Assembly (NCBI RefSeq): GCF_000340215.1
Contig: NW_006921532.1
Coordinates: 1-64,000 of the forward strand
Direction of reading: 5' to 3'
Length of the DNA stretch: 64,000 nt
From: Pseudocercospora fijiensis CIRAD86
Taxonomy: Eukaryota; Ascomycota; Dothideomycetes; Mycosphaerellales; Mycosphaerellaceae
The notes under the pieces are model-generated. The model searched no databases. It was not told where the DNA came from and saw only the letters and a program-made list of their open reading frames with translations. The translations under genes were made by a program, and so were the position numbers. Below, piece by piece: positions 18,236-55,640 of the stretch. Each line of letters begins with the position of its first letter. Position 1 is the stretch's first letter.

Positions 18236-18263
18236 CGGCGCCCTACTATACGCCCGCTATACG

Positions 18264-18281: not shown

Positions 18282-18294
18282 GTGCCCTATAGTA

Positions 18295-23470: not shown

Positions 23471-24129
23471 CTAGTATTTATACGCGGCGCTATTTATAAA
23501 GAGAGCGGTAGTAGTCGTAGTACTAGGAGAAGTAGCCGTCCCTAACTAGCCGAATAGTACTAACTCTAGAGTATTTAACTACCTACTACGCCTATTTAGC
23601 TACGAAGTAGAGGGTTAATATAGAGGATAGATTAGGTAGCCGAGGAGGTAGACGATATAGCGGCTAGATATAGTAGTAGCGTAGACGAAGAAGATACTAT
23701 ACCTAGGTCTTACTCGGCTTGCTATACTTTCTTCTAGGCTTATCGTAGAGCCGTACTCGCTAACTTCCTTATAGTACGTTCGGCCTTCTTCTTCCGCTCT
23801 TCCTCTTTAGTACTAAGTAGCTTACGCTATCCTTTAGGCAGCATCGTATTAATTCCGTTAATAGCGGAGGGCAAAGCTTATATATAAGCCGCGCTAATAA
23901 GTATAGAATTCGAGGAGGTAGTAGTTCTATCTCGCGGAAACTACTAATACTAGAAAGGGCTACCCCTTTCTAGCGATATATTTTATATATAAGAGAGTAA
24001 GGAATAGTAGCGCAGTATATTTTACGTATAAAGTAGTGCGTATAAGCAGGTTCGTATACTACCTACGGCCTTCCTATAGACGTTGCAAAACCTAAAGTCT
24101 AGTAATTAAAGGACACCGTAAATAACTTA

Positions 24130-24184
24130 AAACTTTAGGTACGTACCTTAAACGCCTAGTTTTAGGTACGTACTAAAAGTTTTA
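24130..24184. repeat. PalA element (copy 2 of 15,671-15,725)
   Basis: Same inverted pair with AACTTA/TAAGTT flanks. The centre has changed from CTAGGCG to CGCCTAG, that is, it is inverted relative to copy 1. This suggests flipping of the loop or strand exchange at the palindrome. Confidence 0.75.
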
Positions 24185-24730
24185 AGTTATTCCTCTATCG
24201 GACCGTAGGATAAGTAAACCTAAAGAGTATTACTAGTAGGTCTATTATTAAAGGTAAAAGTCCTTACTAGGCGATAGGCGGAGTAATACGAGATATAGGG
24301 TAAGGTTCGTAGTAGCCTTCCGTAATAGCGAAGGAAGGCTATTTAATTAGATAGTTAGCTAGGTTCTAATAATGTTTAATTAATGTCGGGCAGATAGGTT
24401 AGCTAGATTTCGGGAAAGGGTACCTCGTATACTTAATATAAGACTAAAAGTATAGCTAAGAAGATAGGTAAATCCCTACTTACGGAACCGGAGGATAAGG
24501 GGTAGGGGAATACGTACCCCGTATATTTCTTAACCGGAAGCGCTCCGTCGCGTTCTAACGGAGCGAGGGCCGTATTGCTAGTTATAGCTAATTAGCTAGA
24601 CGCGGGCGCGGTCGAGATACGACTTAGAATACGAACGCCTTCTTACTTTAATGTTTCTTAAGCGCTTCGTCGTATCCTAGCGAAGCGGCTTACTAACTAG
24701 AAGCGCTTCGTCGCATCCTAACGAAGCGGC

Positions 24731-26060
24731 TTAACGATATCCTTATCCTTACTACGACTACCGAGACGTACAAATTCTTCCTCGAATATAGCGATATAAC
24801 GTAAAAACTAGTCGATAGCGTAGTTAGTCTAATAAGCGATAATTATTAGTAGATCTCCCTTATTCTAGTTCTCGAGTATTACTTTAATAGCTTATATAGA
24901 GATATAGGTCTTACTAGTACTAGATAGGCCTTAAATAATAGTAAGACGCGCCGTTAGAATACGATAGAGCGCTTCTAGTTAGGAGGCGTCTAGAGCACTA
25001 TTAGGCTTAGAAGGCTAGTACTTAACTATATTAATATTCTCGAAGCTCTCGTTAGAGTTATTAACTAGAATAGAGCTTAGATCTCGCTTCGGCTATACTT
25101 TAAAATACTTAGGCGCCGAAATATAAGGCTATATACTAACGAGGTACTCTAATAAGGGGAAACCCTCGCGTATTATACGCTAAAGGCTAAGTAAGGTATA
25201 CCGATTAGCTTCGAAAAGTCCGCTACGGTCCTCTACTATAAGATATTCTATAGTAGGATCTAGCTCTAACTCCTCGGGACGAGCAAAGGCGAGATTAAGC
25301 TTAGGTAGATTCTACTAAAGTCCCTCTAGTAGTCGAGCGGCAATAGTAGCGATAATAGCGCGAGACACGAACTTGTTATTTATTAGTATAAGAACGACTA
25401 AGCTACCGGCGATAAGGCGCTTTAACTATTCCTATAGAACTTTCTTACTAGTACGGAGGAGACTAAAAGTAACGTAGACGGCGAAGCTATATATAGACAA
25501 AGTCGCGCCGTAGATATAAACCTGCTTAGGTTAGTATATAACGGGCGGCGCGTTAAAGGGGTAAAGGCGAGACTAACCTTCGTATAGATACCGACTTTAC
25601 TATTAAATGCGTCCTTAGCGGTATATAGAGTATAGCGAGTTATTAAGACTACTTCGCGAAGGCCGCGGAGGGTATCTTCGCGGTTCCTATAGAACTTTCT
25701 TACTAGTATAAAGGAGACTAAAAGTAACGCGGACGGCGAAGCTACGAGTAGACAAAGTCGCGCCGTAGATATAAACCTACTTAGGTTAGTATATAACGGG
25801 CGGCGCGTTAAAGGGGTAAAGGCGAGACTTACCTTAGTATAGATACCGACTTTACTATTAAATGCGTCCTTAGCGGCATATAGAGTATAGCGAGTTATTA
25901 AGACTACTTCGCGAAGGCTATAGAGGGTATCTTCGCGGTATAGCTCGTAGAGAGTACTCTAAGAGAATAGTTCTATAAGGGAGGCGATAAATAGTAAATA
26001 GAGCTAGTCGACGTCGCGCGCGAGGGCGAGCGTTCCTATTGCTAGTTATAGCTAATTAGC
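24731..26060 (-). pseudogene. UPF1-like SF1 helicase, truncated (copy 2)
   Basis: Second copy of the NFX1/ZNFX1/SAD-3-type fragment at 16,317-17,620, with the same truncation point and the same 255-bp internal duplication. The Walker A region (about 24,885-24,950) is further degraded. Confidence 0.75.
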
Positions 26061-26652
26061 CTACGGCCCTTACTATATCGCTAGTTATAGCTAATTAGCC
26101 TAACGCGGGCGTAGTCGAGATACGACTAAGAATACGACCGCCTTCTTATTTAGCTCGTAATACATATAGGCGGCCTATAAGTAGGCGCGAGAATATATTC
26201 TTTTATACCTTCGATATTATAATATCGAATAAATAGAGAATAGTTCTATAAGGGAGGCGATAAATAGTAAATAGGGCTCGTCGACGTCGCGCGCGAGGGC
26301 GAGCGTTCCTATCGCTAGTTATAGCTAATTAGCCCGCGGCCCTTACTATATCGCTAGTTATAGCTAATTAGCCTAACGCGGGCGTAGTCGAGATACGACT
26401 AAGAATGCGACCGCCTTCTTATTTAGCTCGTAATATACGTAGGCGGCCTACGAGTAGGCGCGAGAATATATTCTTTTATACCTTCGATATTATAATATCG
26501 AATAAATAGAGAATAGTTCTATAAGGGAGGCGATAAATAGTAAATAGGGCTCGTCGACGTCGCGCGCGAGGGCGAGCGTTCCTATCGCTAGTTATAGCTA
26601 ATTAGCCCGCGGCCCTTACTATATCGCTAGTTATAGCTAATTAGCCCGACGC
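25962..26652. repeat. 273-bp tandem repeat (copy 2)
   Basis: Units start at 25,962, 26,235 and 26,508, matching the array at 17,545-18,235 in number and spacing. Confidence 0.85.
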
Positions 26653-26680
26653 CGGCGCCCTACTATACGCCCGCTATACG

Positions 26681-26698
26681 CCTAACCCTAACCCTAAA
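26681..26698. repeat. Interstitial telomeric repeat (copy 2)
   Basis: Same CCTAACCCTAACCCTAAA as 18,264-18,281, again 13 bp from the duplication edge. Confidence 0.85.
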
Positions 26699-26711
26699 GT
26701 GCCCTATAGTA

Positions 26712-27560
26712 CGTCCTTAAATAGTTTAGAGAACTACCGTCTTATATAATATAGGTAGACCGAAGTACGGCACTTAGCCTATCTAGTCTAGGCCGTCGGC
26801 TAGTAGGTTATAGATAGGTAAGGCGGGCGTATTACTAGAGCTATAGCGTTAAATAACGCTATAAACGTAATCTACCCTTACTATAGTCGGTATTAGTCTA
26901 CTAGGTTATCTTTATCCTAGTACTCTAGTAACCTACCGAATACTATAGCGACCTTAGCTAACGCTAAATACTACCTTGCGGGCTCCTAATCGAAGCTAAA
27001 CGTCTAGTACGGCTAGTTACTATCGTCCTAGCTAAGTATATTTAACGCTACTCCGCTGTCCTTTAGCTATAAAGAGTCGATAGTTTTAGCCTAATTACGA
27101 AAAAGGGCGAGGCTTCGTACTAACTACTTAACCGGGTTATCTACTAACGTACTACCTACGCGGATCGGCCTTAGTACCGAATTATCTAAGTCGCGGAGCG
27201 CCCCGAATAGGCAAAAACAGTTAACGTAATAACGTAGTTTATATAATATTTTATCGATTATCCGTTACTATTCGGCCTTAACTTTAGTACGGTATCTAAT
27301 CTATACGTTATACGTCGGTAATATAACGTAGTCTAGAATATAACCCTATATCGCTAGCTCTTCCTAGCTATTATCGAACGGCCCCTTTACTACCTATAGC
27401 GCGGCTAGGCGCCTTATATATACCGTATAGCTAGCTAGCGGTAATAGGACTCGGATAGTATTAGACTCTATATAGTATACGTTACTACTGCTATTATCTC
27501 TTTTATTTTCTCTATCTACCTATATATATATATCCGCTAGGATAGAGTCTAGTCGAGCGA
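26712..27560 (-). pseudogene. Unrecognised RIP-inactivated coding fragment
   Basis: One minus-strand frame can be followed across most of this stretch with TAG/TAA as the only stops. Readable parts include CFCLFGALRDLDNSVLRPIR (about 27,200) and YLALAKVAIVFGRLLE. It is cut at its 3' side by the edge of the S1 duplication. No family is recognised. Confidence 0.4.
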
Positions 27561-28389
27561 ATTGCTATTATTCGATTATATAGGTATCGTCTATAATTAT
27601 AGGTACGAAGACGACCGGTATAAAGATCGGATCTTTATACTATACCGTAAGGACGATAAGATCCCTCGGCTACGCGTATAGAGCAGCGGTATATAACGCC
27701 CTATAGACGCCTAAGTACGATCGGCGCTAGTATCGATACGTAGAAAATAGCGGGCGTCGATTATAGAAGTCGTTCGCGTCGTAACGTATTACTCGTCGCT
27801 CGGATAGTATTTCGCTTACTACCTACTAAAAAACTATATCGAGGAGCTCCGGTAAGAGTAATAGTAGTATCGTAGTTATAGTAAGTATAAAGAATATCGC
27901 TATATAGCTAAGATATCGAGCGCGATATTAACTCCTTTTATTTTAATATATATATCTCGAGTAATCGCTCTCGCGCCCGTATATATTCGGATCTAGTACT
28001 ATTAATTAGTAACTATGTTTTTTTTCTAGCTTTTATATAAACCGCTATCGCCTACGATATATTACTCGAATCTCGTCGACAACCCTCTAACTTTAATACT
28101 ATAATCTATTAGTACTCTATATTAGGATAGCTTTATAGTTTAGTCGGTTAGTATCTACTAAGACGCTATATACTATATACAATTTTATATTACGATACCC
28201 TATATAAAGTAAAATTTATAAATTGTCTATAACCTAGCTAGTTTATATATACGAGACGAGATGTAGCTATTAATCGCGTATAATATAGCGATAGCAAGAT
28301 ATATACGAAAATATAAATAGATAGAGTAAGAGCTATAAAATTAATTACTAGGGCTAGTCTAGCGTAAATAGGGCGCTATTAGGGTTGTC
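27561..28389. other. RIP-mutated region, no gene resolved
   Basis: TA-rich and CpG-containing sequence. I could not follow one frame with confidence on either strand. Confidence 0.3.
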
Positions 28390-28990
28390 TAGAAACTATT
28401 AAGTTATAAGCAGACTATTTTACTAGTCGGGAAAATAGTATTTAACGTTATTACGATATATATCGCTAGTAGGGTATCTTTAACGCTAGTTAAGACAACT
28501 ATTATTTTATCCCCGAGGACGTACCGACGACTAAGCCCCGGCTAGTGTCCTTACGCTACCCGTATATTATCGCGCCGACCGGGAAACCCTAGGGCACTTA
28601 TAGTGCTGCTTATAGAATCTATTAAGCTACGAGTAGACTGTTCTACTAGCCGGGAAGTTAATTATCGATGCTCTTATATCGTAAGTAGGGCGTTTCGGTA
28701 CTATCCGTAGAAATTATTAAGCTACGAGTAGACTATTTCGCTAGCTAGGAAGTTAGCTATTAAGGCTCGGATCGGCGGTAGGGCGCAGTTAGTACTATTT
28801 ATATAAATTATCTAGCTACGAGTAGACTATCCTACTAGCCGGGAAATTAACTATCGAGGCTTTTATATCGTAAGTAGGGCGCTTTTAGTACTGTTTATAG
28901 AAATTATTAAGCTACGAGTAGACTATTTTACTAGCCGGGAAAATAGTTATTAACGTCCTACGATATATATCGTTAGTAGTGCGTATTTAA
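28390..28990. repeat. ~95-bp tandem array with PalB halves
   Basis: ATTAAGCTACGAGTAGACTA recurs at about 28,397, 28,621, 28,716, 28,809 and 28,906, a period of 93-97 bp for the last four. Each unit carries ACTATTTTACTAGCCGGGAAAATAGTT-like sequence, the inner part of PalB, and most contain CGTAAGTAGGGCG. No coding frame is supported. Confidence 0.75.
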
Positions 28991-31711
28991 TACTACCTAC
29001 TATACCTAACGTTTAATTATATAAGGATATATCGACGGCGAAGACCTACTTAACGTTATTATATTGCCTATAGACTATTTCGCCGACTAGGAACCCTAAA
29101 GCACTATCTCCTACTAGGCGATTTAATATATAGGATAATAATTGGCACTAGATTAATTAGTACGCATTTTATACGTATCCTTCCGATGCTCGAAATAGGT
29201 ATATAGTAGTACGTCTATCCCCTCTATCGACTAACCTCGTTAATCTATATCTATCCTCGATGCCGCTTAAGAGTATCTATACTAATTGTTAACTATAATA
29301 CTATTACCTATCGGCCTCGCCTATAGTCGCGGAGACCGTATCTAAGTACGCCTAGATTAATACTAATATAGCGTCGATCTTACCCTCTATATCCGGTATC
29401 TTATAAAGCGGAGCCTATCGATCCTATAGCCTAGTAACTAGACCGCCGAGGAGATAGGTATTTAGCTATACGATTTTAGTCGACTTCCTAGTCTTAGCTT
29501 CGAATATAAGACTAATAGCTATACCGGCGTTACTAAGTTTATACGAGTAGAGTATACCGAGGGCGTCGTTAATCTTTAGGTATAGGGTAGCGCGCTTATC
29601 CTCTATTAATAGCTAGCTAGCGGTAGTAGAGGAAGCCGATAGCTAGGCGTACGATTATAGGCGCTTTAGTATATATCGGGTACGCTTCGCGCTATAACGC
29701 TCGCTCGATAAATTGCGGCTAAGGCTAAACTTACGCTTACGAGGCCGAGTTAGAGACTAGATGTCCGTCTAAGGGCTAGTAATACCGCCTAGAGGCAAGT
29801 CTAGATCTTATAGATAGTCGGGGGCGGAAGATAGTCTAGAACTCGAGCGCCGGTCTATAGCTAACTCGTCGTCGTTATCGACGTCCTTAGTACTAGTAAG
29901 AGCGGACAATAGTCGCTTCTATTAAGCTTGCTTCTATCGAGCTCTATCGATATAGCGTATAATAGCTTCGTCGTTATTACTATTATCGTTACTATCGTCG
30001 CTATCCTTAGTAACGATAGTAGTAGATAGCGGAAACTTTAGGCCTTTACTATAGAGTCTTCTCTTACCCTTAGATCGAGCCTTAGGTAGAGGCTAAGCGG
30101 GTACCTTACCGTCCGATAGATAGGGAGTATTAGCCTTACTATTAGGTCGATTAACATCCGTATTAGCTAGACTAGTTAGGTCGTTAGCGTAATCGGATTA
30201 GCCGTCGTCGAAGCTATAGTTAGATTCGCTATCGTCGATTATCGTTACTAGCTATTAGATTTCTCTAAGTAGGATAGTATCGTCTTACTCGGGGTCGTAT
30301 ATAAGGTCGCCGAACTAATTATTAGGGCTAATAACCGGGATAGAATTAGGATCGTTAGGATCGGCTATCTTAGGCTTAATAGAGGCTAGAAATATAAGAT
30401 ATTCGAATTTAGTTCGGCCGTTTAATAGGATCTTAAGCTTAGCTACTACCTACCTAAATAGCGTAGAGTAGCGCTAGTAGTTTCGCGCTATAACGTCTTC
30501 GAGATATACTATAAGGGGAATTAGTAACTATATAAATACCGAAATGCTAACTATTTTACTAAATAGCAAAGTAGTCGGTAATACGACGACGATACTTACT
30601 ATACTAATATAGGATAATATCTAGATTATAGTCGCTAGTATCGATAGCCTAGCGAGATATATCGTAAAGGTATCGATATATTATCTCGAGGGAGATAAAC
30701 TCGACCTAATCTATATAGTATATATATAACTAGGCGCGAAAGTTAAAAGGCGCAATCTTAGGCTTAGCTTTAATATTAGGGTCGTCGCGATTATCTAGAT
30801 CTCGTATAGGATAGTCGGAAGCGGAAGTCGGGACGGCTATTATAGTATTAAGGGTATAAGCCGTCTACTTAGCCTTAAGTCTACCGTAAGATAGGCGCTA
30901 GATTGCCTCGATAGGGAGGACGTATTTTATTACTAGCGTACAATACTCCTTCTATATAGGGTCGCGGCGACTAGATCGAATGCCGTATATAGTTCGTATA
31001 TAGATATCCGCTATATCCTACTTTACGCGATAAGCCGCCTCTATAGTAAATATATCTTCGTCTTACTAGATAGTAGGGTCGGCTACGATTATAGTAGTTA
31101 ATAGACGATATGCTTCCTCTTAAACTACGTCTAAGTCGGGGGTAACGGTTACTATAAGCTAGTTAAAGAATCGAGTATAGTAATCGTACTATAGTATATA
31201 GTCGATTGTATCGTCTAAGCTAAGGTCGTATACGATAACCGGGTAAGTCTACTTAACGCGAGAGGAGCGACCCGTCTACTAAGCCTTCTAGGTAAAGCCG
31301 ACGATATTTAAGACGAGCTAGACGTATCCGCTATACTATAAATTAGCTGCCTCGGATCTAGTACGAGATAAGAGGATAATAACCTTAATCTTAGGATTAT
31401 AGTTATAGTTATCCTCGGTAGAGCTACGCTCGGCTTAGGTTATCCCGGCGTAAATAGAGATATAATCGATTATATATAGGTCGAGAAGGAGCTCGATAGC
31501 CTTATAATTTAGCGGCTCGTTAACCTAAAAGATTATCTTCTCGTCGGTAAGGATAACGTATCGGTAGAGGAGCTATAGCGAAGCGTATAGCTTAGGTAAC
31601 TCTTAAATTAGGTACTTAAGGCGATCTAGGCGCGCCCTAATACTAGGGTTATTAACATTTCCCTTAGTATAGGTCTAGAAGAAGTCCTAGGTAGATACGG
31701 AGTTCTAAGAC

Positions 31712-31840
31712 CTAAACGGTAGTTAGTAAGAGTATAGTTAAAGTAGAGTAATCGCCGACTATTTCGCCGGCTAGTAAAACCGTCGACGTCGTATAATAGT
31801 TTTACCGGCCGGCGAAACGGTTAGAGACGGTAGACTTATA
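31712..31840 (-). other. Intron with PalB pair (paralogue 2, between helicase lobes)
   Basis: Branch CTTACTAACTACC and acceptor GTTTAG| are clear, exactly 20 nt before the shared exon sequence CCTAGGACTTCTTCTAG. In paralogue 3 the acceptor is also exactly 20 nt before the same sequence. The donor is not fixed. PalB lies at 31,757-31,826. Confidence 0.7.
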
Positions 31841-33496
31841 GTAAGTTAATATACGGTATAAAAGAGTTAATATTATACTCGAGGAGCTAGCTAAATATAC
31901 CCGAGGAGGCGCTAAGTACTAATAATCGGCGAAATATAGTAGGGTAGGAGCGCTTCTAGCTAGGAGTAGTCGGGTTATTATAGACGTAGTTAAGGCGGTC
32001 GTTACCTACGATTATAGCGAATCTAGCGACTACGGCGCGATATATAGCCTCTAACGTTAAAGTAGGCGAGGTCTCTACGTAGATAATCTACTATAGTAGG
32101 ATTTCGGAGCCGAGTATTACGGTCTCGCCCTAGATAAGCAGTTAGGTACCTTTAACGCGGCGAAGTATATAGATACTTATCGGTAGGGGAACGAGGGCGG
32201 AGTAGCGCCTATCTATATCCTCCTTATCGCTTAGGCGTAAGAGAGTCCGCTAGGCGACAGGATCGATTACTTAGAGGTAGCGTTCCTACTCGCTAATACT
32301 ATACTACTTCTTACTATTACTATTCGGGGTAGGTTAGGACACTTAGTTAGTAGGTACGCGAGTCTAGTCTATACCGTACTTCTTACGGAACTCCTCGTAT
32401 AGCCGCTCGTAGACGTCCGAGCTACCGAAGCTACTAATAAGTTCTTCGCGTTAAGTATCTAGCTACTTCTTACGAATACGCCGAAAGAGATAGCGTATAA
32501 GGCTAGCAAAGTCGGCTATATTATTACGGAATAGCGTAGCTATCGCAAACACTAAGACTATATACTCGTTATCGAGTAGTATCTATATAGAGTTACTCTA
32601 TAGAGAAAACTTATTCTTAAAGTAATAGCCTTTATCGCCGATAATAATAGATAGCCGGGCGGCGCGCGTACCCTATAGAAGAGATATATTATTAGATATA
32701 TACTCTAGTAGGAACGCCTCGTCCTTCTCCTTTTCCTTAGCGGCGTCGTATATACGCTCGGCGGTATTATCGAGTACGGTAAAGTCGTCGAGAGACTCTT
32801 TAGGTTCCTCGATATCGTAGAGTTACTCGAGTTTCTAGCCGTATCGCGTCTTATATATAACGCCTAGTTGTATAGTCTTCTAGACCTACGAATCCTTAGT
32901 AGTAATAAGGATAGTACGAGTAGTCTATAGGCTTTCGACTAGCAACCTATTAACGAAAGTAATAAGACCTTCTAGCTTAGCGGTAGTACCTTTAACGTAG
33001 TAGGTAGGATTCTTAGGATTAGGCTTAACGTTAATATATATAGCGACGTTAATATAGCGCGCGTAGCCCTCTCTAGGCCTAAAGTATCGGGCGCAATTAT
33101 TACGCTAGGTATTAACGGCCGTATTAGGGCTAATCTCGTATATAGGTATATAATCCGGTAGAGCCGGATTATACTTATTAAAGAAGGCCTAGACTACTAA
33201 GAATACAAGGTTGTATATATCGGCGTCGGTATACTTTAGTAGAGTACGCTACTCGCTACCGGCCTTTACTATTTAGATGTCGATACCGATATACTAGCCC
33301 GGCTTAGACTCTATAGGCAATCCTAGATAGGCCTAGACGTAGGCATCGATAAGCTCCTACTTATCCGGTATAGATAGGCGAGTATCGACGTCTATCGAGG
33401 CCTAGTCGGTAGCGTTAACTATAGGTATAGGAATTTATATATTAGTAATAGGGCGAGGCGCGATATTACTCTCGATATACGCGTAGTAGAGTACGG

Positions 33497-33633
33497 CTAT
33501 AATAAACGTTAGTAGAGGAGAAATAAGTAGTAGGCAGACTATTTTACTATCTAGATAAAAAGAAAAAGGCATATAAGCGACGACTAGATTACTAGCCGGT
33601 AAAACGGTCTATATATAGAAAGAGAAAACGTAC
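33497..33633 (-). other. Intron with PalB pair (paralogue 2, intron after Walker A)
   Basis: The donor AAG|GTACGT, branch site CTACTAACG and acceptor TTATTATAG| are all visible on the minus strand. Joining the exons restores a continuous phase-1 frame (RRNY..|AVLYYAYIE). Paralogue 3 has an intron in the same place and phase. The interior holds two PalB palindromes. Confidence 0.85.
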
Positions 33634-34978
33634 CTTAATAGTTGCGACGCTATTCTTCGATATATTCGGACTAATAGACGACGGCGTAGAGGACTATAAT
33701 AGTCTTACTAGTACCTACGTTATCGGCGAGGATAGCGCCTTATATAGGCGACTTCTATATTTAGAGAATCTACGCGATTGTCTAAGGCTACTATAGCTTT
33801 AAGGCGAGATCGCGAAATGTAATACGGAATCTATACTTACTAATAGGGTTAATCTCGCCGTCTAGGAGCGTAGTAACTATAATGCCCGTCGCGGCGTACG
33901 CGTCTACAAATATAGGAGAGACGGCTAATACGCTATTTATATAATATAATATATTACTAAATATAGTATTCGTATCCGTAGAGAACTATAGAAGTTCGCG
34001 GTAGTCTAGGGAGTCGGCGGTATAGTACTCGGCCTCTCGGTTAATACGGTCCTATATAGCCGATAGTAGATTATCGTTTATATCTTAGAGTAGAGGGATA
34101 CCTACGGTACGGTAGACCTTCTCCGTATATTAGCGGTAACCTTTATAGAGAAACCGCTTATTAGCCGGATCGATAGTAGTATAGTCGTTAAAGAAGATTA
34201 GATTACGGCGCTCGGCGAGGCATTTAATATATTTGTCGCGTATAGTCTAATCCTATATATCTAGATCGCGGGTATTAAGGTTAGTAGTCTTACCCGCGAA
34301 TAGGTTATAGTATATACCCGAGAGGTATTAGATAGTATTATTATACTCTTAGGCCGAACGGAGAATAGTGCGTTTTATATTAGTAAAGAATTCGCTTTCG
34401 ACGTCGGCTAGAGTCTAGCGAGCTTCGTTATCGGCTAGTTTTTAGTCTCGGGCCTACTCTATAGTATTAAATATCGTAGTACCGGGGACTCCGTATACGA
34501 TAGGCTCCGCGTTAGCCCTACCGTAGAAATCCTTCTTAAATACGTACGCTATACCCCCTACTTCCTTGTTCTTACGAACCTTAGTATACTAGTATTAAAC
34601 TAGTAATATAAGGCGAAAGAGGACATTTCCGTTAACCTCCTAGCCTTAAATGCTCTTAGCTACCTTTCGGTATTCGGGGGGAATCTCCGGAGGCACTTCG
34701 AGTACGTACGCGTAGTCTTCGTATATCTCGGCGACTATTCGTACTAGGTAGGCTATACGTAAGAAATAGACGGCGAGGTATAGTCTCGGCTTCGAATATA
34801 GGAAGCAGATATCGTTAGGTATATCCTCTATTATAAGATCGTCGATAGTAAAAGTATTATCGGATATAGCGAAGATATACTCGAGAATAGTCTTCGTCGA
34901 GACTAAATTATTCGAGTTACCCGGTAGCTAGTCCTCCTTAGGTAGGTCGTCGTTACTATTACGCAAACTAAATAGGTT

Positions 34979-35142
34979 CTATATAATAATGTTAGCGTTA
35001 ACTAGAAGGGATATATAACTACGAGGACTAAACCGCTAACTATTTCGCCGGCCGGCAAAGTCTAACTTCGGTATAGCGGGTTTACTAGCCGGCAAAACAG
35101 TTAGTATATTAGTCTAGGTATATAGCGTAGGACGGAACTTAC
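34979..35142 (-). other. Intron with PalB pair (paralogue 2, 5' part)
   Basis: Donor ATTAG|GTAAGTT, branch AACGCTAACATT and acceptor TTATATAG|. Both PalB palindromes (35,034-35,108) lie inside. Confidence 0.78.
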
Positions 35143-35734
35143 CTAATATCTACCGTTATTCTAATACTACCGACCTACCGACTACGATATAGCCTAAAGG
35201 AACCCTTTATATAGATCCTAATAAGGGAAGTTTAGGAATAAGAGAATATATCTATTCTTCTCTAAACCGGACCCTAGGAAGCCGAGAAGGTATATACTAC
35301 AATCGGCCTAGACGGGAACTCGCGTACTATTTACTAGGAATATTCTAAGCGCCTCTCTTCTAGCTTTACGTATAGCCTCGTATAGTGCCTACTTCTTATC
35401 TATAGTTAGGCTAAACTATAGCGGTACGGTTACTACCTTAGGTACCTTAGGAGCCTTAGGCTTAGGCTTAGGCTAGGCGGGTATGCCCGGCGTAGAAGGA
35501 GCAGCTAGTACATTCTAAGTAGCCTTAGTACTCTTGCTCTTAGTTCTCGTAGGGAGAGTCGGCGACGACTCGGTAGTGTTCGCGTTAGTAGTAACTATCT
35601 TCTTATACTTCTTCGGCGTCGCTAGGCTAGTCGGTACGAACTTCTCGTTCGGATTTATAATCGCCGTCGGTATATAGCGTACTAGCCGTTGTTTACCGTT
35701 CGGACTAGCTAGAAGAGTAGCTCGTAGGTATAGA

Positions 35735-35795
35735 TCGGTTTACTAGGCGGAGAAAATAGGAGTATAGACTAGTTTACTAGATAGAGAAACGAGAT
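35735..35795. repeat. PalB element upstream of paralogue 2
   Basis: Two degraded CTAGTTTACTAG / TTTACTAGGCGG halves with ATAGACTAG between. Each of the four 5' modules in this region has a PalB-like element at the same side. Confidence 0.55.
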
Positions 35796-35814
35796 AGAGG
35801 TAGGTAGACGGGGA

Positions 35815-36115
35815 AGGCGGTAGTAGTAGGAGTAGATTATAAAGTAGAAGAAGTTAGGGCGATAGTAGAAAGGTATATACTAGTATTAGCGCTCGGACCT
35901 CTAACCGTTTATACGGCGGGCCGCGTAGATAGCGTAAATATATAGGGCAGTTTACTTTACTAATACGCGTATAAAAGAGACGTTCCGAGCGATATAGCTA
36001 ATTTATATAGTAAAGTTAGGACCGCCTTTCGTTCGGTACGTTAGTTAAGGCCGATAGGTAAAGTCCGCTAAAATACGCTAGTATAGGGTTTAGAACCTAA
36101 TCTAAGAGGAAGGAA
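35815..36115 (-). promoter_or_regulatory. 5' module with TATA box, copy 1 (paralogue 2)
   Basis: Conserved block shared with three other sites (41,700-42,010, 43,650-43,915, 44,815-45,075). On the minus strand it contains a TATATAAAT box (about 36,000-36,011) next to GCTATATCGCTCGGA, and ends toward the gene with a TAGTAGTAGAAGTAGA-type stretch. The position upstream of the minus-strand gene fits a core promoter and 5' leader. Confidence 0.65.
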
Positions 36116-37257
36116 TAAAGTAAAGCCGAAGCGACGCCGTTACCTTACCGAGATCCTATACTAGATAGACCGCTTACGTCGCCTATATAATTTTATATAG
36201 TATATCGAAGTCGTATATCTCCGTCTACGATATAGGCGAGGTTGCGCGCGAAGTAGGGCTATAGAAGGTAGCCGAACGACGACGAAGCGGTATATAATAG
36301 TAACGTAATATATACGTAGACTTTGCGTACGCGGTAGGTACGAGGCGTAGAAGGAAGTAAAGTAAAGTCTAACTAGAGCAGGCGCGGCAAGACGAAATAT
36401 AACTAAGGTAATACTAACGACTTTACTAGCCGGAAAAGTAGTTAACCGTCGCCGCGAGAGTATATCCGGTTAAGACGGGTTAGTAACCGATAGAGTACTT
36501 ATTAGAGACGCTGCCGTATAAACCCTTTTAACTATTTTTTCCCCGGCTAGTAAAATAGTTAGCGACTAATAAGAGGGGGTATCGTAGTAGAGATAGACCG
36601 ATAGTATACTAAACCTAGGGGAGATAATAGCGGAATATAAGACCTAGCTTAAACGTATATCTATAGACGTATCTTCTATTATACCCGTCCGTATAATCCT
36701 ATAGACGGCGTGTCTTATAGGCAAGATATAATAACTAGGTAGCGGGAAATGTATAATATCGGTAGAGGCGAGAAGATAGGTAGATAAAATGCCCGAGCGG
36801 TAGGGAAAGACTCTCTATCGTTGCTATAGATACTCGGCGATTATATTACGCGTACGTAAAGTGTAACGAAGGTATAGGCGGGTTAGACAATAGCGGTAGG
36901 GCCTCGCGGATAATAGTAGTTCGGAATCGGTTATATAGACTCTAGATCTACGCGTAACGGCTACTATAATTCGGTTATATTAATAGTATATATTATAAGT
37001 ACCGACTAGGTAGACTATATATAGGTAGGAGAAAAAACTATAGAAAAGGCTAGAGATACGATAGGAAATTGCTCTACTTAATTAGCTAGTATTTAGTATA
37101 TAGATAGAACTATCTATACGCGCGCCTAGTCGGTAACCTATAGGACCTAACGCCTAGGATACGCGTACTTACTAGTCGTCCCGTAGAGGCCTACTCGAGG
37201 AGATCTATATTACTATCTACTCTCTATATATAGGGCCCGTACGAGTATACCTACGCC
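36116..37257. other. Intergenic with two PalB elements
   Basis: PalB-like palindromes occur at 36,417-36,447 and 36,528-36,571 (TTTTTTCCCCGGCTAGTAAAA). No coding frame is supported. It separates the promoter of paralogue 2 from the end of paralogue 3. Confidence 0.4.
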
Positions 37258-38924
37258 TTACTCGGCATCCTCGGCGTCGCTACTCTCGACTAGTACTATA
37301 AACGAGGCGCCGGCTACTAGCTTAACGCGCTTAGTATAAGCTAATATATCGTCGGCTAGGCAAGGATATAGAGCGACTAGTAGAGTAAGAGATCGCTTAG
37401 TTAAGTAACGAGCGCGTAAGGTTAGCTCGTCTATAGCGCTAGTATCTCCGACGAAGTCGCTAGAGTTAAGGCGAATAGGAGAGCTAGCCTAACTATCTAG
37501 TAAGTATAGCTATATACCTATATAGTTAGGTTCGTAGTTAGACGGCGTTCTAAGGGAGGGAGTAGTAACTCTATAGTTACTATTATTATTATAATTATCG
37601 AAGGGACTAGTAAAACTCCGAAATCTTCGGACGAGGGGCGCGAGAGTAGGAGCGTAGTAGCCGATGTTTTATACGGCCTAGGCAAAATCGGCGTCGTAGT
37701 TAGGAGTACGCCGCTAAACGTACTTAAGATATACTATAAAGGGTATTAGCAATTCGACTAGTAACGGAGGTAATAACTACTATACTAGACGGCGAAATAG
37801 ATAATAACGTATAGTACGACTTACTATACTAATTAGGAATAATAGTAGAGTCGTATTAACCTATAGCGAGGGCCTCGGTAGCGAAATAGTAAAGGTACTA
37901 TATAAGTCGAATTAGATAGGTATCCTTAGTAACGTCGTCGTAGTATAGATATTACGCTATAGTATACTTAAGATACTCGTAGTCGCATCCTCCTATATAG
38001 TCTAGGTTACGCTTATCGGCCTAAAAGAAGTTATCTAGCGCGGGCTACTAGCGGTCGACAATAGTAGCGACTTCTCCCGCTATCGTACTACTAAGTAATA
38101 GGCGAAAGATAGCTTCGACTAGGATAAGATTCTTATAAGTTAGGTCGGAGATATAGCCCTATATAGTATCTAACATCTAGTAGCGAATACTATAGGACTT
38201 GCGTATATAGGCGTCGGCTATATACTATCTAATATTAGTATTAGCGTATTTACGGAATCGGGTTATAGGGGGCGTACCGGTAGTACTATAGGCTCGTATA
38301 ATCTCGTCTAACTAGATATAGTAGATCTCTTTATCTATAAGCCGGTCGGGCGGTAAGACTACTATAGTAAGCCGCTCCTAAATGTCGAAATAGAAGGTCT
38401 ACTAGTAGCGCGAGTCGATAGTATCGACGAGGCTTAATTCGAATACTATAACGGCGTAAGTCTATTCTACGCGAGTATAACGATTAACGATCGAGTTCTT
38501 CTTACTAAAGTCGACGACATCTACGATATACTATATGTATATACCGTAATATAGATTAATAGACTCCGTATTAGTACGCGAGGATAGGATAATAGCCTAG
38601 ATTTAGGGATTATTATTAAAGGCATCCTCGGCGGTAGCGCGCTCGGCGTACGTTATACTAATATAGATAGTAGAGTATCGGATCTAATATAACTCTAATA
38701 CGAGGTCGAGGAGTTAGTAATTAAGTAGCTCTTCGACCTAGAATACTACCTTAGACGAAAGCTAGATAATATATACGTAGACAAGCTATAGTATCGCTAG
38801 GTACTTTAGAGATAAGCGGACTAGATAGACGAGTTAATCTACGCGACGGCTTAGGGTAGGAAGGGGCGTAGAGCCCTTTATATAGAACTAGAAGAAGTCC
38901 TAGGTTATTATCTAATATAAGGCG

Positions 38925-39070
38925 CTAGAGTTATATTAGCGAGAAAGTAGCGGCGGACGGTTAAACTATAGACTACTTTACCGGCTAGCGAAATAGTCGT
39001 ATATATCTACTAGTTTTTACTAGCCGGTAAAATAGTCTATAGCGTAATAGACTTATAAGGATTAAAGAGT
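38925..39070 (-). other. Intron with PalB pair (paralogue 3, between helicase lobes)
   Basis: The acceptor ACTCTAG| lies exactly 20 nt before CCTAGGACTTCTTCTAG, as in paralogue 2. PalB lies at 38,972-39,046. The donor is not fixed. Confidence 0.65.
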
Positions 39071-40683
39071 TAGCGTAGAGGAGGTTAGCCTTCGGTCGGC
39101 GATAGCGGCGAGGAGAGGATAGGCGGTACGGAGACTAAGCTAGCGAAATAGTGCCTTATAAGTTAGCGTAGTAGAGGGGCGCTTAATACCGCGGTCTAGC
39201 TTATCGATACGCTTAGCGAAGCGATAGTAAGCGGCGCGGTATTCTACCTAGGAAATAGGAGTATATTATATCTCGACGTTAATAACTTACTATAAGAGAA
39301 TGTCGTCCCCTAAGGTTATAGTATAGTCGCGGATCTTAAGTTAGTTTCCCTTAGAGCGTCGAAGGACGTAGAGGCTAAAGGCGAATATCGTTAGATATAT
39401 CTAGTTATTGTCGTCGAGGGGCCTACGTAGGGCTTTAGGGTTAAGTATTTAGAGGACGATATCGCGAAAGTATATAGCGCCGGTATAGACGTAGCGAGAT
39501 AGTAGAGCTATACGATAGATTCGTAGGTCTTCGGAAATAGCGCTCTATCGGAGGCCGTAGTCGCGTTAGAAATAGCTATAGTATATAACGGCATTAGTAA
39601 TATCCGAAAATCTAAAAATAAGGTCGGTCCGATCTCGGGCGTCCTATAGTTTAAAGATACGATAGAATAGAAACCGAGTAAGTATAGCGAAGTCGTTAAG
39701 ATCGGTAGCTAATAGAGTCGCTATAGCAAACACGGCTACTATATACGCGTTGTTAAAGAGATTCTATATAGCGTCCGTTTAGAGTAAGAACTGCGCCCGG
39801 AAGTAGTATACCTCGTTATATATAACGATAGACGGATACGCGGCGCGTAAGTTAGCGAGACGAAACGTATTATCGGATCGATACTTATCGTATAATTAAG
39901 TATTACGAGCAATCTAGAGTTCTCTAATAGTATTATTAGTACAGTCTCTACGCTCTATTCGATAATCGACTGCCTCGAGATTCCGTAGTTACAATTCGTC
40001 CTTCTACTAATATAGCCGTAGCCGATCCTAAAACTAAGCTAGGCGGTTATATCGCTTATAGTACGCCGGGCCGGATATAAGTGTCTCCTAAACAAAGGCC
40101 TCGCGAGTAGAGATAATAAGCGTACGAGTAGTCTATAGATCGCGGTCTAAAAGGGATACGATATATTCGATAAGTCCTAGGCTGTCGGGTATATTTAGGT
40201 AACGCCGGATAATATAGATAGAATAGCGAAACTCGCCGTTAAGCGTAACGAGAGTAGCGACGTAGACATAGCGAGTATAGTTAGGATTAGGACTAAAGTA
40301 CCGGTTATAGGCATCGCGCTAGGTATTAATCGTCGCGGCGGTCCCGATTTAGTAGATAGGAGTATAGCGGTAAGGCGTCGTATAAGTCTTATCTAGCTCG
40401 GTATATAATTCGGCGATAGTCGACTTCTACGCGTTAATATCCTCTTTAAGAGGGCCTAGGCAAATACCGTCGGCTTCGTACTCTAGGTAATCGAGTATCC
40501 TACGCTAGAGCGTCTAGCGGCTACTAACGCCGAATCGCTAGTCGAAGAAAGTATCGACTACTATTATAAGTAGGTCGCGCGGGTCGTCGTCGGGAATAGT
40601 CGGTATATTATAGAACGGGACGTAATAGCCGAAGATAGAGTCTAGTACGATACCTCGCTCTATATAGGCGTAGTCGAGTATAG

Positions 40684-40808
40684 CTACGACGATAGTTAGT
40701 AGGAGATAAGTATATATATAGACCGTTTTGCCGGCCGGTAAATAGATATCTAGATATATATTTGCCGGCCGGCAAAATAATCTATACGTTAGGATTAACA
40801 TTTCTTAC
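40684..40808 (-). other. Intron with PalB pair (paralogue 3, after Walker A)
   Basis: Donor AAG|GTAAGAAATG, branch CCTACTAACTATC and acceptor GTCGTAG|. The phase-1 join gives AILDYAYIE, aligning with AVLYYAYIE of paralogue 2. PalB here is nearly perfect: TTTGCCGGCCGGCAAA on one side, ACCGGCCGGCAAAACGG on the other. Confidence 0.87.
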
Positions 40809-41659
40809 CTTAATATACGATACGCTATTCTTCGATATACTCGGACTAAGCTACGGCGGCGTAGAGGATAGAGATAGTCTTACTAGTACCGGCATCGTCG
40901 GCGAGAATAGCGCCCTATATAGGTAATTTCTACATTTCGACGATCTATATAATAGCCTATAGTTGCTATATCGTAAGACGGAGTCTACGAAACGTAATAT
41001 AGTATAGGCATTTACTAACTTTATCGATCTCGCCGTCTAAGAGTGCGGTAACGTCGATGTTTATTACCGTATAGGCTTCGTTAAATAATAGAGGCGTAGC
41101 CGTATACCTAGAGCGATAGTGCTATAGGGTATCGAGTATACTAGCGTATAATATATACTAGGCGTCAGTAATAGGGAATAGGGTATCGGGCTAGGGCGCA
41201 AGCTATAGCTAGTTAGTATTAGCCTAGACAGTACTCTTACGCTTACTCGGGAGATATTTTATATTAGCGGGATTAATAGTATCCGAAGTCGAAAAAGTTA
41301 TATCGATACTATTACTAATATCTCGTAGGAAGGCTCGCTATAGTACCGGATCCTAATCGTTAATCTTATATACGTCGTACGTCTTATACTACTTATAAAG
41401 GACATTCGTTAGGTCGTCTATTACGCGTATAGTTCGCTAGTAGTTATAAGTATTATCTACTTAGGTCGACCTAGCCTCGCTAAGAAAGGCCTTTTCGTCG
41501 CATACGAATTTATATACGTCGCTAGGTATAAGAGGACTAATAACCGGAGAGGGTAGACGCCTAGATAGACGTAGAGGGCCTAGAGCTAGCACTTCGGGGT
41601 CGTCCGCTATATTTAACTTAGAAACGTCCTTAGGTGTCGCCTAGGTAGTACTAATTCGA

Positions 41660-42449: not shown

Positions 42450-43560
42450 CGAGTAGAGCTCTCTAGGATATTAATTAGTGCTTTATTTAGGCCTAGATAG
42501 ACTGTATCTCGGCAGATTGCGGTTTAAAGGTACGACCGCGAATACGCTTAATCTCGTCGTTACTAAAGATACGCTCTAGTATAAGAGCCGTAGATAGACG
42601 AGTAGAGAGTAGGTAGGGTAAGTCTAGCTCGAGATAATAGTAGGCGGGATCGATACGATATAGATAGTATACTAGACGCTAAGTCCTAGGCGCCGACGGC
42701 TAGTTCTATAAGCGTTTCTAGGCGATAGCGGAGATATCGGTTATAGTAGCAACGTAAAATATAGCTAGGCGAGCGCGGCTATAAGAGTAATAGATAATCG
42801 CCTTTACGTCCGGATTGACTTTAAAGGATCTATAGGCGACGGTACTCTAATATATAGATATATAGTCTAGGGTAACGTACGGGATCCGATATATACCTAG
42901 TAGTAGATAGAGCGCGTCGTAGGCGAATAGGTCTACGTCGACGGTAAACCTAACTTTAGAAGACTATAGGATAATATATATATAGATAAGCGACAAGACT
43001 ACTATAAACCGATAGAACGGGGCGACTAGTTATATAAGCTAGTAGACGCGATGCTCTAGTATAGGAATAGATATAGTAACTTTAGGGTACCGCTAAATAG
43101 AGTTCTATATATTCGCTAATAATCGAGTACTATACGCTAGTTAGTTAGGTAGTATATAGTTTCGTCGACTACAGACCGCTTTGCTAGCTAGCAAAGGTAA
43201 TAGATATCGCTAACCGTTTACCGGCCGGCAAAGTAGTCTATAGCGTAGCTAACTTATAGTAGGGTACTATTAAAGAAAGGACATACGTAGGGGCAGGACA
43301 AGAAATAAATGCTATAAGATACATTATATACGGTCCTAACGAGCTTACGGCGTATAGCGGTATAATAGGGGCAAGCGCTCGCCTAGGATACGAATTAGAC
43401 TAGGTCGATAAAGTAATTATATATAATATTAAAGTGTTCGTAGTAGCGATTATAGAAGATAGCTACGGCTTATTAATCTACGTAGGATCGGCCTAGCGTA
43501 CTATCTATAGTATTATCGTCGGCGACCTTTGCTATAGTAGTAATCGGAGGCGACGACGTA
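42450..43560 (-). pseudogene. Minus-strand stub gene behind 5' module 3
   Basis: A minus-strand frame with RIP stops is visible, including AVAIFYNRYYEHFNIIYNYF (about 43,430). A PalB pair at 43,172-43,245 is followed by CCTAACTAACTAG, which could be a branch site and acceptor. I see no helicase motif. It has the same 5' module as the helicase paralogues, so it may be a truncated or diverged member or an unrelated gene using a duplicated promoter. Confidence 0.4.
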
Positions 43561-43915: not shown

Positions 43916-44299
43916 TAAAGTCGGGTAACGACTAGCGTACCGAGCTAATAGATACCTAAGGCATAGTCGACCGTTCTACCGGCGGAGGCAATAGTAGATA
44001 CGTATAGCTAGATAGGATATAAGGCAACTATAGCGGCTATAGGGACGATAGACTTTGCTAGCTAGTAAAATAGTCGACGATTGTAGGAGATATCGGTATA
44101 TATAGTATAGGAAAGGATAAGATAGCAGATATATAAATTAAATTATTATATAAGGATAAGAGCAATAGAGAGCTAGATAGTATAGAACTATAGTAGTATA
44201 AGCTACGGCATAGTCTATAATGCTACGTACGTCCGTATTAATCCGCCGTCGAGAGCATAGTATAATAGGTAACCTAGGGGCGTACGTAGGCTTCCCTAC

Positions 44300-47300: not shown

Positions 47301-49329
47301 AAGCCTATACTAAGCATAGTATACGTAATGCATTCGATGTATGTATGCTACCGTCTCTAAGTAGATATAGTAGTTAAGCAATATAGACCGCCTTATATTT
47401 CCCTAACCCGTTAAACTATAGGATAATAAATACGACTATATAAGAGTGCTAACCGTTTTGCTAGCTAGGAAAATAGATAATAGCCCGGCAGTTTGCTAGG
47501 CGGCAAAACAGTTAGCATTATGCTATTAATAATTTACTATATAATATACGGTAGTAGGAGGAGGTAACCTATAAAACCTGCCCTAGAAAACGCCGTTAGT
47601 ATATAGAGCGTAATACGTAAGTAAGCTAGACCCGAGGGTTAGCAACGATTAGGGTAAATCTTAGCGGCGGTAAGGTTACTAATTTACTCGGACTGTCTCG
47701 GTTATAGTAGGTTTATGTTCGGGTAGATAAATAATAAAAGATATCGTTAGATTAGGGCGTTGTTATCTAATCGATCGGGGGAGAAATCAGTTTTCGAGAA
47801 TTGTAGTCGTTCGAAAATATACTATAATTTCGGACGTATATCCCGGGTAGACGAACTAACCGCTATCTATTCTACGATATTACGAGTTAACAGTTTTAAG
47901 AACCGAATACTAACCGAGTTAATCGTAGTATTTTATTGCGTATATAATAACTATATATAAACTAGTATATAGCCTAACAAGTCCGTATACGGGTCCGTTA
48001 GTATTATAACGTAAGGATATATCGGATTACCTCGACAATAGCCGGATTAGATAATAGTAGACTACTAGGTAAGCAAGAATATACTAGACTAAGATAGCTA
48101 AGGCTGCGATAACGGCATAGATAGCATACCGGACGTCCTAATAGACGATATGTAATAAAAGCTAGTCGGCGAGGTATAATAGTCGAGCTATATCTAGGGA
48201 TAGATAGCGCAATTAGGGTTCGAGCCTTAGTAGCGTTACTATACTACGACCTATAGCTAGTAGACGCATCTGCTATAACCGCAATTACAATGCGAGAGTA
48301 CTAACCATTTTACTAGCTAGCAAAAGTAATATAGACAATATAGTTTACCGCCTAGCAAACCGGTTCGTATCTAATCGTCGTTTAGTAGATTAGCCCTAGG
48401 TTATATAACGCCTAAGTCTCGTACGATAGAAGTGCTAGATATAGAAATTCGGGTAGTACTATAACTATATACATTTACCTCCTATATATAGCTAGCGATG
48501 TTTAGCGGTACTGCAGCGTAGTATCGACTATACTATATATATAAGCAGGTTAACGTATAAGATCTCTATAAATAGCTTATATCTAATAATACTCGATCTA
48601 GCCGACTCCTTTACCGATAGGTTCTAGTATTTCAATACGGATATCGCGAGATAGGGAAAAACCGGTAGATTGTCTAGTAAGTGTACCTACGTTTAAGTTA
48701 TACGGGGTATAATCCGACTTAACCGAGTATGTCCTCTACTAGCGAGATCTAACCTAACTACTAGAGGAGGCCTATAGTTAGTGCGATAGTATAGAAACTA
48801 AGCTAGTACGTCGATCGGTCGGGGTGTTAGCGTACTCGCTAGGATAATAGGTATAAAGTAGATACCAGTAGTAAGAAATAACCCGGGTAAGTAGCACTTT
48901 ATTAGCTGCCGTCGATAGTACGTATAAATACGAGGCGAGAGAGCTATAGTATTAGCGCTCGACCCCTAAGTAATAGCAAGGGCTAGAGGGAATATAAGAG
49001 ATTACAATAGATAATATACGACGACGTACGAGGAGACATTAAATTAAACCTAACTTATATACGCGGATTTTAAATGCGACGCCTAGATCGAAATGTAGTA
49101 CGGTATAACCGCGCTATTCGAGTATACTAGAGAGAGTGCGTAGGCGAATAGTATATTGCAAAAGAAATAGTATACAATAAGTAGAGGCGGACGCGTAAGT
49201 ACGAGCGGTACGGTAAAATTTAATCGAGTTTACGTACGGTTCTAGTAGGACGTAAGGTAGGATCGGCTATAATAATAGACAAAGTAGCGATACGGTAGGT
49301 AGTCTAATATATATAGTAAGGAAAGATAT
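47301..49329. other. Spacer with two PalB pairs
   Basis: PalB pairs at 47,451-47,518 and 48,302-48,365. A short open plus-strand stretch at 47,760-47,960 keeps TpG but resembles nothing I know. No other gene is supported. Confidence 0.35.
47451..47518. repeat. PalB element
   Basis: CTAACCGTTTTGCTAGCTAG and TTTGCTAGGCGGCAAAACAG, the usual inverted pair about 30 bp apart, with GCTAAC and GTTAGC outer ends. Confidence 0.75.
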
Positions 49330-50170: not shown

Positions 50171-50463
50171 AGTAATAGTAGTTCGGTTTATAGATAGTTT
50201 ATATATTAGATCTCGACTAACTACGCTCTATCTGTATTTAACTTAAACGGTCTAGCGATATAGGTAAATGCTAGCTATAACTGTTTAGTTATATGCTCTA
50301 CTTCTAACGTCGGTAGACATCTTATACTATAGCGTACGAGCGTAGCGACGCTATAGCGTTATTAATTTAATAAGGATACTAGTACAATAATATCGTTAGT
50401 AGATTAGAGACTATTACTCCCGCCTAACTACTAAGTTAATATAGCGATAATATAGCTACGTAC

Positions 50464-50545
50464 CGACTATTTCGCTAGACGGAAAAGTAAATAGTACGAC
50501 TAGTATATTATTGTTTTTTTTTCCGGCCGGCGAAATAGTTAGCGT
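50464..50545. repeat. PalB element
   Basis: ACTATTTCGCTAGACGGAAAA and TTTCCGGCCGGCGAAATAGT, in the usual inverted arrangement. It lies between two plus-strand pseudogenes. Confidence 0.7.
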
Positions 50546-54382: not shown

Positions 54383-55640
54383 GACGACGTAAAGGTCGAT
54401 AAAGAGTTGCTAAATCTAGGGGGGGAGGGTAGATACGTAGGCTAAGCTATCGTAAACGATATTTCGATCCTCGTCTAGTTTCTCCTAGATATCGGCCTAG
54501 GCCTTAATTAAGGCAGACGCAAACTAGTCGTTATACGATAAGGAGGGAATAGGCACTATACGAGCGCGACGATAGACCTAGAATAGGCGATTCTATCCGG
54601 GTTCGTACCTAGCTTTAGGGTAGAAGAATTGCTATACGTAGACATTGCTCTCTTATAGGCGATTAGGTGTCTCTTATAGGCGGGCTTTTCTACTACCGCC
54701 CCGAGTCTAGGTATTAGTCTACTTATATCGCGTTTTATAATACTCTTATATCGAGGTACGCGAGTAAAAGACAGCCGTATATTGTTCGCCCTATTCGTCG
54801 ATAGTAGTATATTAGAAACAATCGAAGTAGAGCGGGAACTCCGGGGCTTAATTATCGGTTAGCTAGGGCTAAATTACCTAGTCGGGTATTATAGCAACAT
54901 CGGGGAACGGCTTAAATTCTTCGATAAGAAGGCGACGGATAGCAATAGGAATAGTATATCGGTATTAGCGGCTAAGATAAGTATAAAAATAGTAAGGGGG
55001 CACGGCGTATTAGCAAGTTACGTACTTAATAATACGATATTAAGGAAGATAATAGAAGTAATCCTCGAAACGGTGTCTTTCCGGCATATAGGTCCCTAGG
55101 TATTAGGAGTAGTTCTTATAACCCTAATAATCTCGATCGTAATAATATATCAATCGCGAGAGCGCGTTAACGGACGTATATCTATTACCTCCTTTATAGA
55201 CTAAAGTAGTTAAGGCGCGGATTGTCTAACCTAAACCTTAATAGTATCTCTATATAGGCCGTATCTACTATAAATAGTATATAGGAAGATAATAAGGCGA
55301 AGGTCGTATAGAATATAACTTAGTATAGCGTAGGTATAAACTAGTTAGAAATCCGGGCAGGCGGTTAGAATAGATAGTATATAGCTACGAGCTAATCCGC
55401 CTCGGGATAGTAGGGAGCTATATACGTATAGGTTACGGGCTTCTAAGCGAGGCGGTCGTAAGATTAAGTAAAAGGTACAAGATATAGACTACTTTGCTAG
55501 CTAGAAAACGGGTAGATCTTTCGCTATATAGCAAAATAGTTAGTATTTATATATATTAGGTATAGGGACGGTACGTAGTAGGAACGGAGTAATTGAAGTT
55601 TATATATACGGTAGCCGGCCTAACGTAGCGAGACGCTCTC
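54383..55640. other. RIP-mutated spacer with one PalB pair
   Basis: PalB at 55,485-55,545. No gene is supported, although short frames occur on both strands. Confidence 0.3.

Follow-up and report, generated by a model that had tools for sequence, protein, structure and literature searches.

Inverted repeats with palindromic arms in introns of putative SNF2-like genes within a RIP-damaged repeat of Pseudocercospora fijiensis

MITEs and foldback elements are short, have terminal inverted repeats and occur at many sites. Among fungal spliceosomal introns, the sister stwintrons and cropped introns of the Hypoxylaceae are described as carrying long, hairpin-capable inverted repeats with arms of 45-55 nt and a short palindrome, WTTCTAGAAA, in each arm (PMC8469720). 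Fungal introners are presented as entire introns that resemble one another in sequence and occupy new positions in genes (PMC4457414, PMC9860276), and the fungal introners treated in PMC9860276 are reported without inverted repeats. The PCR tests of ILE families in PMC4457414 used P. fijiensis as negative control. Mitochondrial repetitive or double hairpin elements are hairpin-forming repeats scattered in the genome, and the loops of the sponge elements are not conserved in sequence (PMC2800124; Allomyces as cited there).

Here we describe an inverted repeat in introns of a large nuclear repeat of P. fijiensis, which we lean towards reading from its sequence as an old, selected cis site that is carried by introns and is not their maker. 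As in the Hypoxylaceae introns, fungal spliceosomal introns contain an inverted repeat with a palindrome in each arm; however, the Hypoxylaceae repeat is terminal in introns that spread to new host-gene positions (PMC8469720), whereas the one described here is internal, is found in one large repeat only among the genome matches listed, and is also present at sites without an intron assignment. Repeated sequence inside introns of Dothideomycetes is a likeness to introner-like elements (PMC4457414, PMC9860276), but here the internal arms alone are alike and not the whole introns. Like the mitochondrial hairpin elements, the repeat has a conserved stem and a variable loop at many sites. Those elements are mitochondrial and lie outside spliceosomal introns, whereas here a nuclear repeat has one stem built from two palindromic arms, and a telomere-type array on the same contig together with spliceosomal-type introns places it outside the mitochondrion. 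We found no literature on this large repeat or on inverted repeats in these introns.

The window analysed covers the opening 64 kb of contig C1 (genome of 73.9 Mb, 30 contigs), with the telomere-type array at positions 2-295. An intact ISW1-type protein encoded in this genome shares 98% identity with one from Pseudocercospora eumusae (391 residues scored). RIP in the window is extreme, with CpA at 0.14, TpG at 0.13 and TpA at 1.93 of expectation, and just two stop-to-stop frames of at least 150 codons are present in the 64 kb. Conservation was scored as purine/pyrimidine (R/Y) identity, which is blind to RIP transitions and counts transversions alone, making conservation readable through heavy RIP. 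All inverted repeats found lie in one block at 28-56 kb that is repeated about 25-50 times in the genome and ruined by RIP. The large repeat is more than 28 kb long, largely subtelomeric and RIP-inactivated.

Two minus-strand paralogues in the block, P2 (about 36-30.9 kb) and P1 (about 42-38.1 kb), have SNF2-type motifs recognised by eye (GAILADNVGTSKT, DKGYYFKNKF and NNIADFASLIRYLF), and by these motifs P2 would be a SNF2-like gene. Aligned with stops read as X, the two are 37% identical in exon B (228 codons), 37% in exon C (484 codons) and 42% in exon D (269 codons), and a third paralogue, P3, aligns to exon D. In P2 the RIP-damaged exon B (33634..34978, minus strand) holds the SNF2-type Walker A motif, seen by eye as GAILADNVGTSKT, exon C (31901..33496, minus strand) holds the DExH-type motif region, and exon D (30890..31712, minus strand, ends approximate) looks by eye like the helicase C-terminal part. 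The stretch of P1 homologous to exons B-D lies at 38101..41468 on the minus strand. Short unmutated SNF2-like pieces occur in non-RIP DNA at C5:2093352 (L035 4356-4595) and C4:200347 (L036 2351-2479), with CpA at 1.21 and 1.22 of expectation and 54% and 44% identity to exon C. The frame of exon C is supported because the first of these, an 81-residue relative with GDEGHHFKNKF, aligns to it (E 3.9e-21). Pfam returned no families for the damaged P1 and P2 frames and the intact 81-residue fragment, and gave nothing usable for whole minus-strand frames of the 10 kb at 28000-37990 and ten pieces, apart from one sub-threshold match to DUF1290 for 46925-47152 (E 0.13). With phmmer, P1 and P2 matched neither of two intact SNF2 proteins from this genome. 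A homologous-protein search with damaged P2 scored 7992 candidates and none reached E <= 0.001, and the 27 genome matches to PF00176 were all stop-free with none in the window.

The intron between exons B and C of P2 (33633-33497, minus strand, 137 nt) has a GTACGT donor, a CTACTAAC branch site and a TATAG acceptor, is in phase 1 and contains an imperfect inverted repeat. From these signals it reads as a genuine-looking spliceosomal intron carrying the repeat. A previous sequence-only reading of this DNA had proposed the intron with this donor, acceptor and phase; its coordinates were exact and P1 has this junction too. The P1 intron (40808-40684, minus strand) has a GTAAGA donor, a CCTACTAAC branch site and a GTAG acceptor (..TATTAAG/GTAAGA ... 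CCTACTAAC ... GTAG/CTATACTCGACTAC) and holds the inverted repeat at 40717-40786. The same codon is interrupted in both paralogues, in phase 1 and with the repeat in both, and the exons join in frame. Also on the minus strand, the A/B intron of P2 (35142-34979; GTAAGT donor, GCTAAC branch, TATAG acceptor), which was assigned from signals in P2 alone and is in phase 0 by eye, has the inverted repeat at 35034-35106, and the C/D intron of P3 (43286-43130; GTATGT donor, CTAAC branch, TATAG acceptor, with an alternative AG ending at 43137) has it at 43170-43242. The C/D intron of P2 (31854-31713, minus strand; inverted repeat at 31753-31826) has a clear TACTAAC branch and TTTAG acceptor and candidate GTATAT donors at 31854 or 31900. 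In the C/D interval of P1 the inverted repeat lies at 38967..39041, with a plausible acceptor near 38922 by eye and no clear donor. Over seven copies of the large repeat the donor GT is intact in 6/7 for P2 B/C, 7/7 for P1 B/C, 6/7 for A/B and 5/7 for P3 C/D, and the acceptor is intact in 7/7 at each of these introns. The A/B branch is CTAAC in the window alone and CTAAT in the six other copies.

The repeat occupies only the interior of these introns. Its ends lie at least about 20 nt from the donor and acceptor in the B/C, A/B and P3 C/D introns, and once the inverted repeat is subtracted, about 50-90 nt remain (114 nt if the donor giving the longer P2 C/D intron is taken), still a workable intron. 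When the A/B, B/C and C/D introns were compared with each other by eye, arms and splice signals were in common with no other evident similarity. The sequence-only reading had called the element intron-carried or intron-making and likened it to fungal introner-like elements. Carriage is upheld by the presence of the repeat in more than one genuine-looking intron. The intron-making part and the introner likeness are not, because the inverted repeat stops short of the splice sites, its subtraction leaves an intron of workable size, arms and splice signals are by eye all that introns at different positions have in common, and no copy off the large repeat is among the genome matches listed.

Where well preserved, the inverted repeat is about 70-75 bp long, with arms of about 26 nt and an unconserved spacer of 18-23 nt, and the core of each arm is self-complementary (for example TTTGCCGGCCGGCAAA at 40761). 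Two well-formed cores are present at 7 of 17 sites. At these, the outer flanks of the two cores match at 5.86/6 in R/Y code and the inner flanks at 2.71/6, while each core's own two flanks match at 3.86/6 and 3.00/6. As the outer flanks match and the inner flanks do not, the structure is one inverted repeat and not two palindromes. This modifies the description of the P2 B/C interior as two foldable palindromes: the motif excess over shuffles is real, but each palindrome is one arm of a single inverted repeat, the second unit is imperfect and the fold is weak. It also removes the idea of an unfamiliar hairpin-pair architecture, as an inverted repeat with a palindromic core per arm has a similar layout in the Hypoxylaceae stwintrons described in PMC8469720.

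The repeat is far more frequent in the window than base composition would give. TTYNCYRGSYRGNRAA has 41 matches in the window versus 0.08 expected from dinucleotide-preserving shuffles, and TTTRCYRGCYRGYAAA with up to 2 mismatches has 24 versus 1.09. Full inverted repeats were defined as having at most 3 R/Y mismatches in each arm. There are 13, all within 28-56 kb and including four that belong to a 96-bp tandem array, versus a mean of 0.03 in 30 shuffles. Single arms (R/Y, 3 mismatches allowed) number 66 versus 10.1 per shuffle, and three of the 66 lie outside 28-56 kb. By hand, 17 repeat sites were listed in the window including P2 B/C, six of them single units, which makes the earlier estimate of about 18 other sites at 28-56 kb a fair one. 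The P2 B/C pair is outside the 13 because its second unit, near 33536, is imperfect; its better-preserved arm (core plus 10 nt) is at 33588..33613. A strict Watson-Crick palindrome scan found 28 positions with at least 10/12 pairs versus about 12.6 in shuffles and failed to single out the inverted repeats, with only 40751, in the P1 repeat, falling in one. A repeat scan of 33300-33800 found nothing. Regular spacing of the inverted repeats was considered and dropped by eye.

Homologous exons border five of the repeat sites (B/C in P1 and P2; C/D in P1, P2 and P3), and 11 of the 17 are without an intron assignment. Strict donor, branch and acceptor signals surround 4 of the 17 sites on the minus strand versus 135 of 4143 scanned positions (3.3%), a background that includes the real introns, and by our own arithmetic the chance of 4/17 at this rate is about 0.002. 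On the plus strand the figures are 1 of 17 sites and 67 of 4143 positions. We consider it barely credible that RIP itself made these features, biased mutation yielding TA-rich palindromes and splice-like motifs by chance: the window is indeed very TpA-rich and single arms do arise in shuffles, but the shuffles, which preserve dinucleotides, do not approach the observed numbers of motifs and full inverted repeats, and P1 and P2 agree in intron position and phase.

Sites without an intron assignment include inverted repeats at 47447..47517 (fold mean z -4.45) and 48299..48369 (fold mean z -2.75) and a weaker one with a spacer of 32 at 50461..50544, found in the R/Y arm scan. Another weaker repeat, with a spacer of 11, lies at 55483..55545 with plus-strand splice-like signals around it and without an established gene context. 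Upstream of P2, two units 117 bp apart occupy 36422..36554, and this 36422/36539 pair is outside the 13. A single unit lies in the 5' region of P1 (41671..41686), and by eye single arms occupy the homologous place in the 5' regions of P3 (43612), P4 and P2. The 96-bp tandem array with repeated single units, seen in the tandem-repeat and inverted-repeat scans, covers 28590..28942. That several inverted repeats lie outside SNF2-like exons would fit transcription-terminator or 3'-end hairpins of the large repeat's genes, a reading we hold to be very improbable since the B/C and C/D repeats sit in the middle of SNF2-like coding sequence.

RNA folding was compared with shuffles at eight inverted-repeat sites (6-7 copies each), giving mean z of -2.2 to -5.2, with single copies from -7.2 to +0.1. 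The least stable was a copy of A/B that folds no better than shuffles (z +0.1). Three exon controls gave z of -0.6, +1.6 and -0.66. The P1 B/C stem had a mean z of -4.27 over 7 copies and the P1 C/D interval a mean z of -5.23. The P2 B/C copy in the window folds modestly better than shuffles (z -1.52, 14/200 shuffles as good), with a mean of -2.48 over 7 copies. In the eight window folds the outer arms pair mutually, in P2 B/C just partly. Predicted stems lie inside six introns or intron intervals, several of them between donor and branch site, which is what a stem selected at the RNA level to bring donor and branch site together would look like. We judge such a splicing aid distinctly unlikely, as it leaves unexplained the similar repeats and units at sites without an intron assignment (47447, 48299, 50461, 55483 and the 5' regions).

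The arms are conserved well beyond the genes around them. Arm R/Y identity is 0.962 between homologous sites (8 comparisons), and 0.967 between the arms of one inverted repeat (7 comparisons). For arms of sites taken to be non-homologous it is 0.929 (231 comparisons, 23 arms), a set that includes 41671 and 43612, which a later comparison by eye found homologous. These values are inflated because arms were chosen by motif match, and they do not include the left arm of P2 B/C, which was too imperfect. Third codon positions have R/Y identities of 0.684, 0.634 and 0.669 between P1 and P2, 0.568 between P2 and P3 and 0.695 between P1 and P3; first and second positions range over 0.667-0.814. The C/D spacers of P1, P2 and P3 align with scores of 9.0, 8.0 and 9.5 versus shuffle means of 7.0, 6.8 and 5.9 (sd 2.1-2.4), which exceeds shuffles slightly if at all. 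In B/C, the score of the 5' flank is 5.5 versus 0.7 shuffled (sd 2.5) and that of the 3' flank, with branch and acceptor, 20 versus 10.7 (sd 2.6). Arm-to-arm covariation at one transversion-variable position was concordant in 6/7, within chance by our own count. On these comparisons B/C and C/D held the inverted repeat before the paralogues diverged, and its arms have changed since then far less than third codon positions. Conserved arms with free spacers favour an old cis-acting hairpin carried in introns over a recent introner or MITE. The constraint is not absolute, as the P2 B/C copy is weak and falls outside the 13 full repeats.

Genome-wide, the pattern TTTRCCGGCYRGYAAA gave 99 + 103 matches, and TTTTGCCGGCCGGCAAAA with up to 2 mismatches gave 97 + 97, each with 0 in the reversed control. 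The 88-bp inverted repeat of P1 had at least 40 full-length matches (40 candidates scored). The exact unmutated pair pattern had 0 matches in viral contigs. Among the matches listed there were 111 distinct places, typed by hand, of which 97 have a large-repeat match within 3 kb and 108 have one within 10 kb, a tie made by distance and not by alignment; the remaining 3 lie in copies 93-95% identical to the window. None of the 111 is away from the large repeat, and new positions in many host genes, by which introners are recognised, were not found among them.

Copies of the large repeat were counted with probes. The probe 33400-34900 gave 42 genome matches, 25 near-full-length and 6 partial at 92-100%, and among the other 11, ten stretches at 70-76% that correspond to the P1 paralogue and one short match. 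The probe 26700-28400 gave 23 matches, some partial, 55400-57000 at least 40 (the best 40 of 62 candidates), 46400-47152 51, three of them weak, and 51386-52585 52. The window was then compared with parts of six other copies, starting at 27814-31904, which are mostly collinear with it at 92-97%; 97-99% of substitutions are transitions. The C17 copy starts at 31904 and the C3 copy at 29338, about 65 bp near 44185-44249 are missing from the C4 copy, which also carries an insertion near 54960, the C10 copy repeats about 210 bp near 42478-42690, and in the C28 copy the 96-bp tandem array is one unit shorter than in the window. Long aligned blocks contain three insertions of at least 5 bases (24, 5 and 5 bases). 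None of the structural differences touches an inverted repeat outside the tandem array, and in the parts covered by the six copies no inverted repeat was gained or lost save the one tandem unit.

These comparisons bear on the possibility that a MITE or introner-like element inserted itself at intronic and other positions within the large repeat and perhaps gave rise to some of the introns. Closely similar arms at many non-homologous sites and the terminal inverted-repeat layout shared with MITEs would both be expected of such an element. Every intron position found in the compared SNF2-like exons also has the repeat; no repeat-free intron was seen between aligned P1, P2 and P3 exons, a comparison with just two positions (B/C and C/D). 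Against this, a MITE interior should be as alike as its ends, whereas the spacer here differs between copies, no target-site duplication was recognised by eye (RIP blurs short repeats), and insertion polymorphism was absent from the parts covered by the six copies. With the inverted repeat also ending before the splice sites and with no copy away from the large repeat among the matches listed, we find this origin rather unlikely.

In the reading that we lean towards, of an old and selected cis site, the inverted repeat would have been carried by introns without having created them. In the pre-mRNA it would fold up as a stem, looping out the intron's central part, and splicing would tolerate it because the stem keeps donor and branch site at an ordinary distance. 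The arms would be kept by a role in cis. The likeliest such role is that of a DNA site, either a palindrome to which a protein binds or a sequence able to form a cruciform, and the repeat may be restricted to introns and gene flanks because coding sequence could not accommodate it. If the arms were selected, introns of this large repeat sheltered a cis-acting DNA or RNA structure, and the hairpin used the intron instead of making it, which reverses the introner story. A wider form of this idea, which we think unlikely, is a dispersed hairpin code in which the active repeat carried the selected inverted repeat in introns and non-coding gaps, introns were kept as hairpin seats and a factor encoded by the element acted on all of them.

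Other features of the block and the window were noted. Pfam gave no family above cut-off for two pieces of a plus-strand frame at 46400-47152 that has 7 stops in 250 codons, few for such mutated DNA, and no match for pieces overlapping a minus-strand frame at 51386-52585 that resembles a RecQ-type helicase by eye. A PIF1 search found 114 places genome-wide, none inside the window and most interrupted by in-frame TAG or TAA stops, the pattern expected if a helicase-bearing transposon family has been damaged by RIP. Rfam gave no match in the window. Some copies of the large repeat lie well inside contigs, at about 7.81-7.85 Mb of C1 (where matches extend up to 11.88 Mb) and about 2.86-2.94 Mb of C6 (4.99 Mb long), and are perhaps old chromosome ends or assembly joins. 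The block at 28-56 kb is flanked on both sides by a repeat of about 5.8 kb (97%) at 5199-11069 and 58138-64000, 53 kb apart. A 6-kb segment is directly duplicated at 12266-18294 and 20724-26711 (94% identity), with 255-, 273- and 30-bp tandem arrays in each copy, and contains two tRNA-Asp(atc) genes called by ARAGORN at 16363-16459 and 24780-24876 that are probably spurious.
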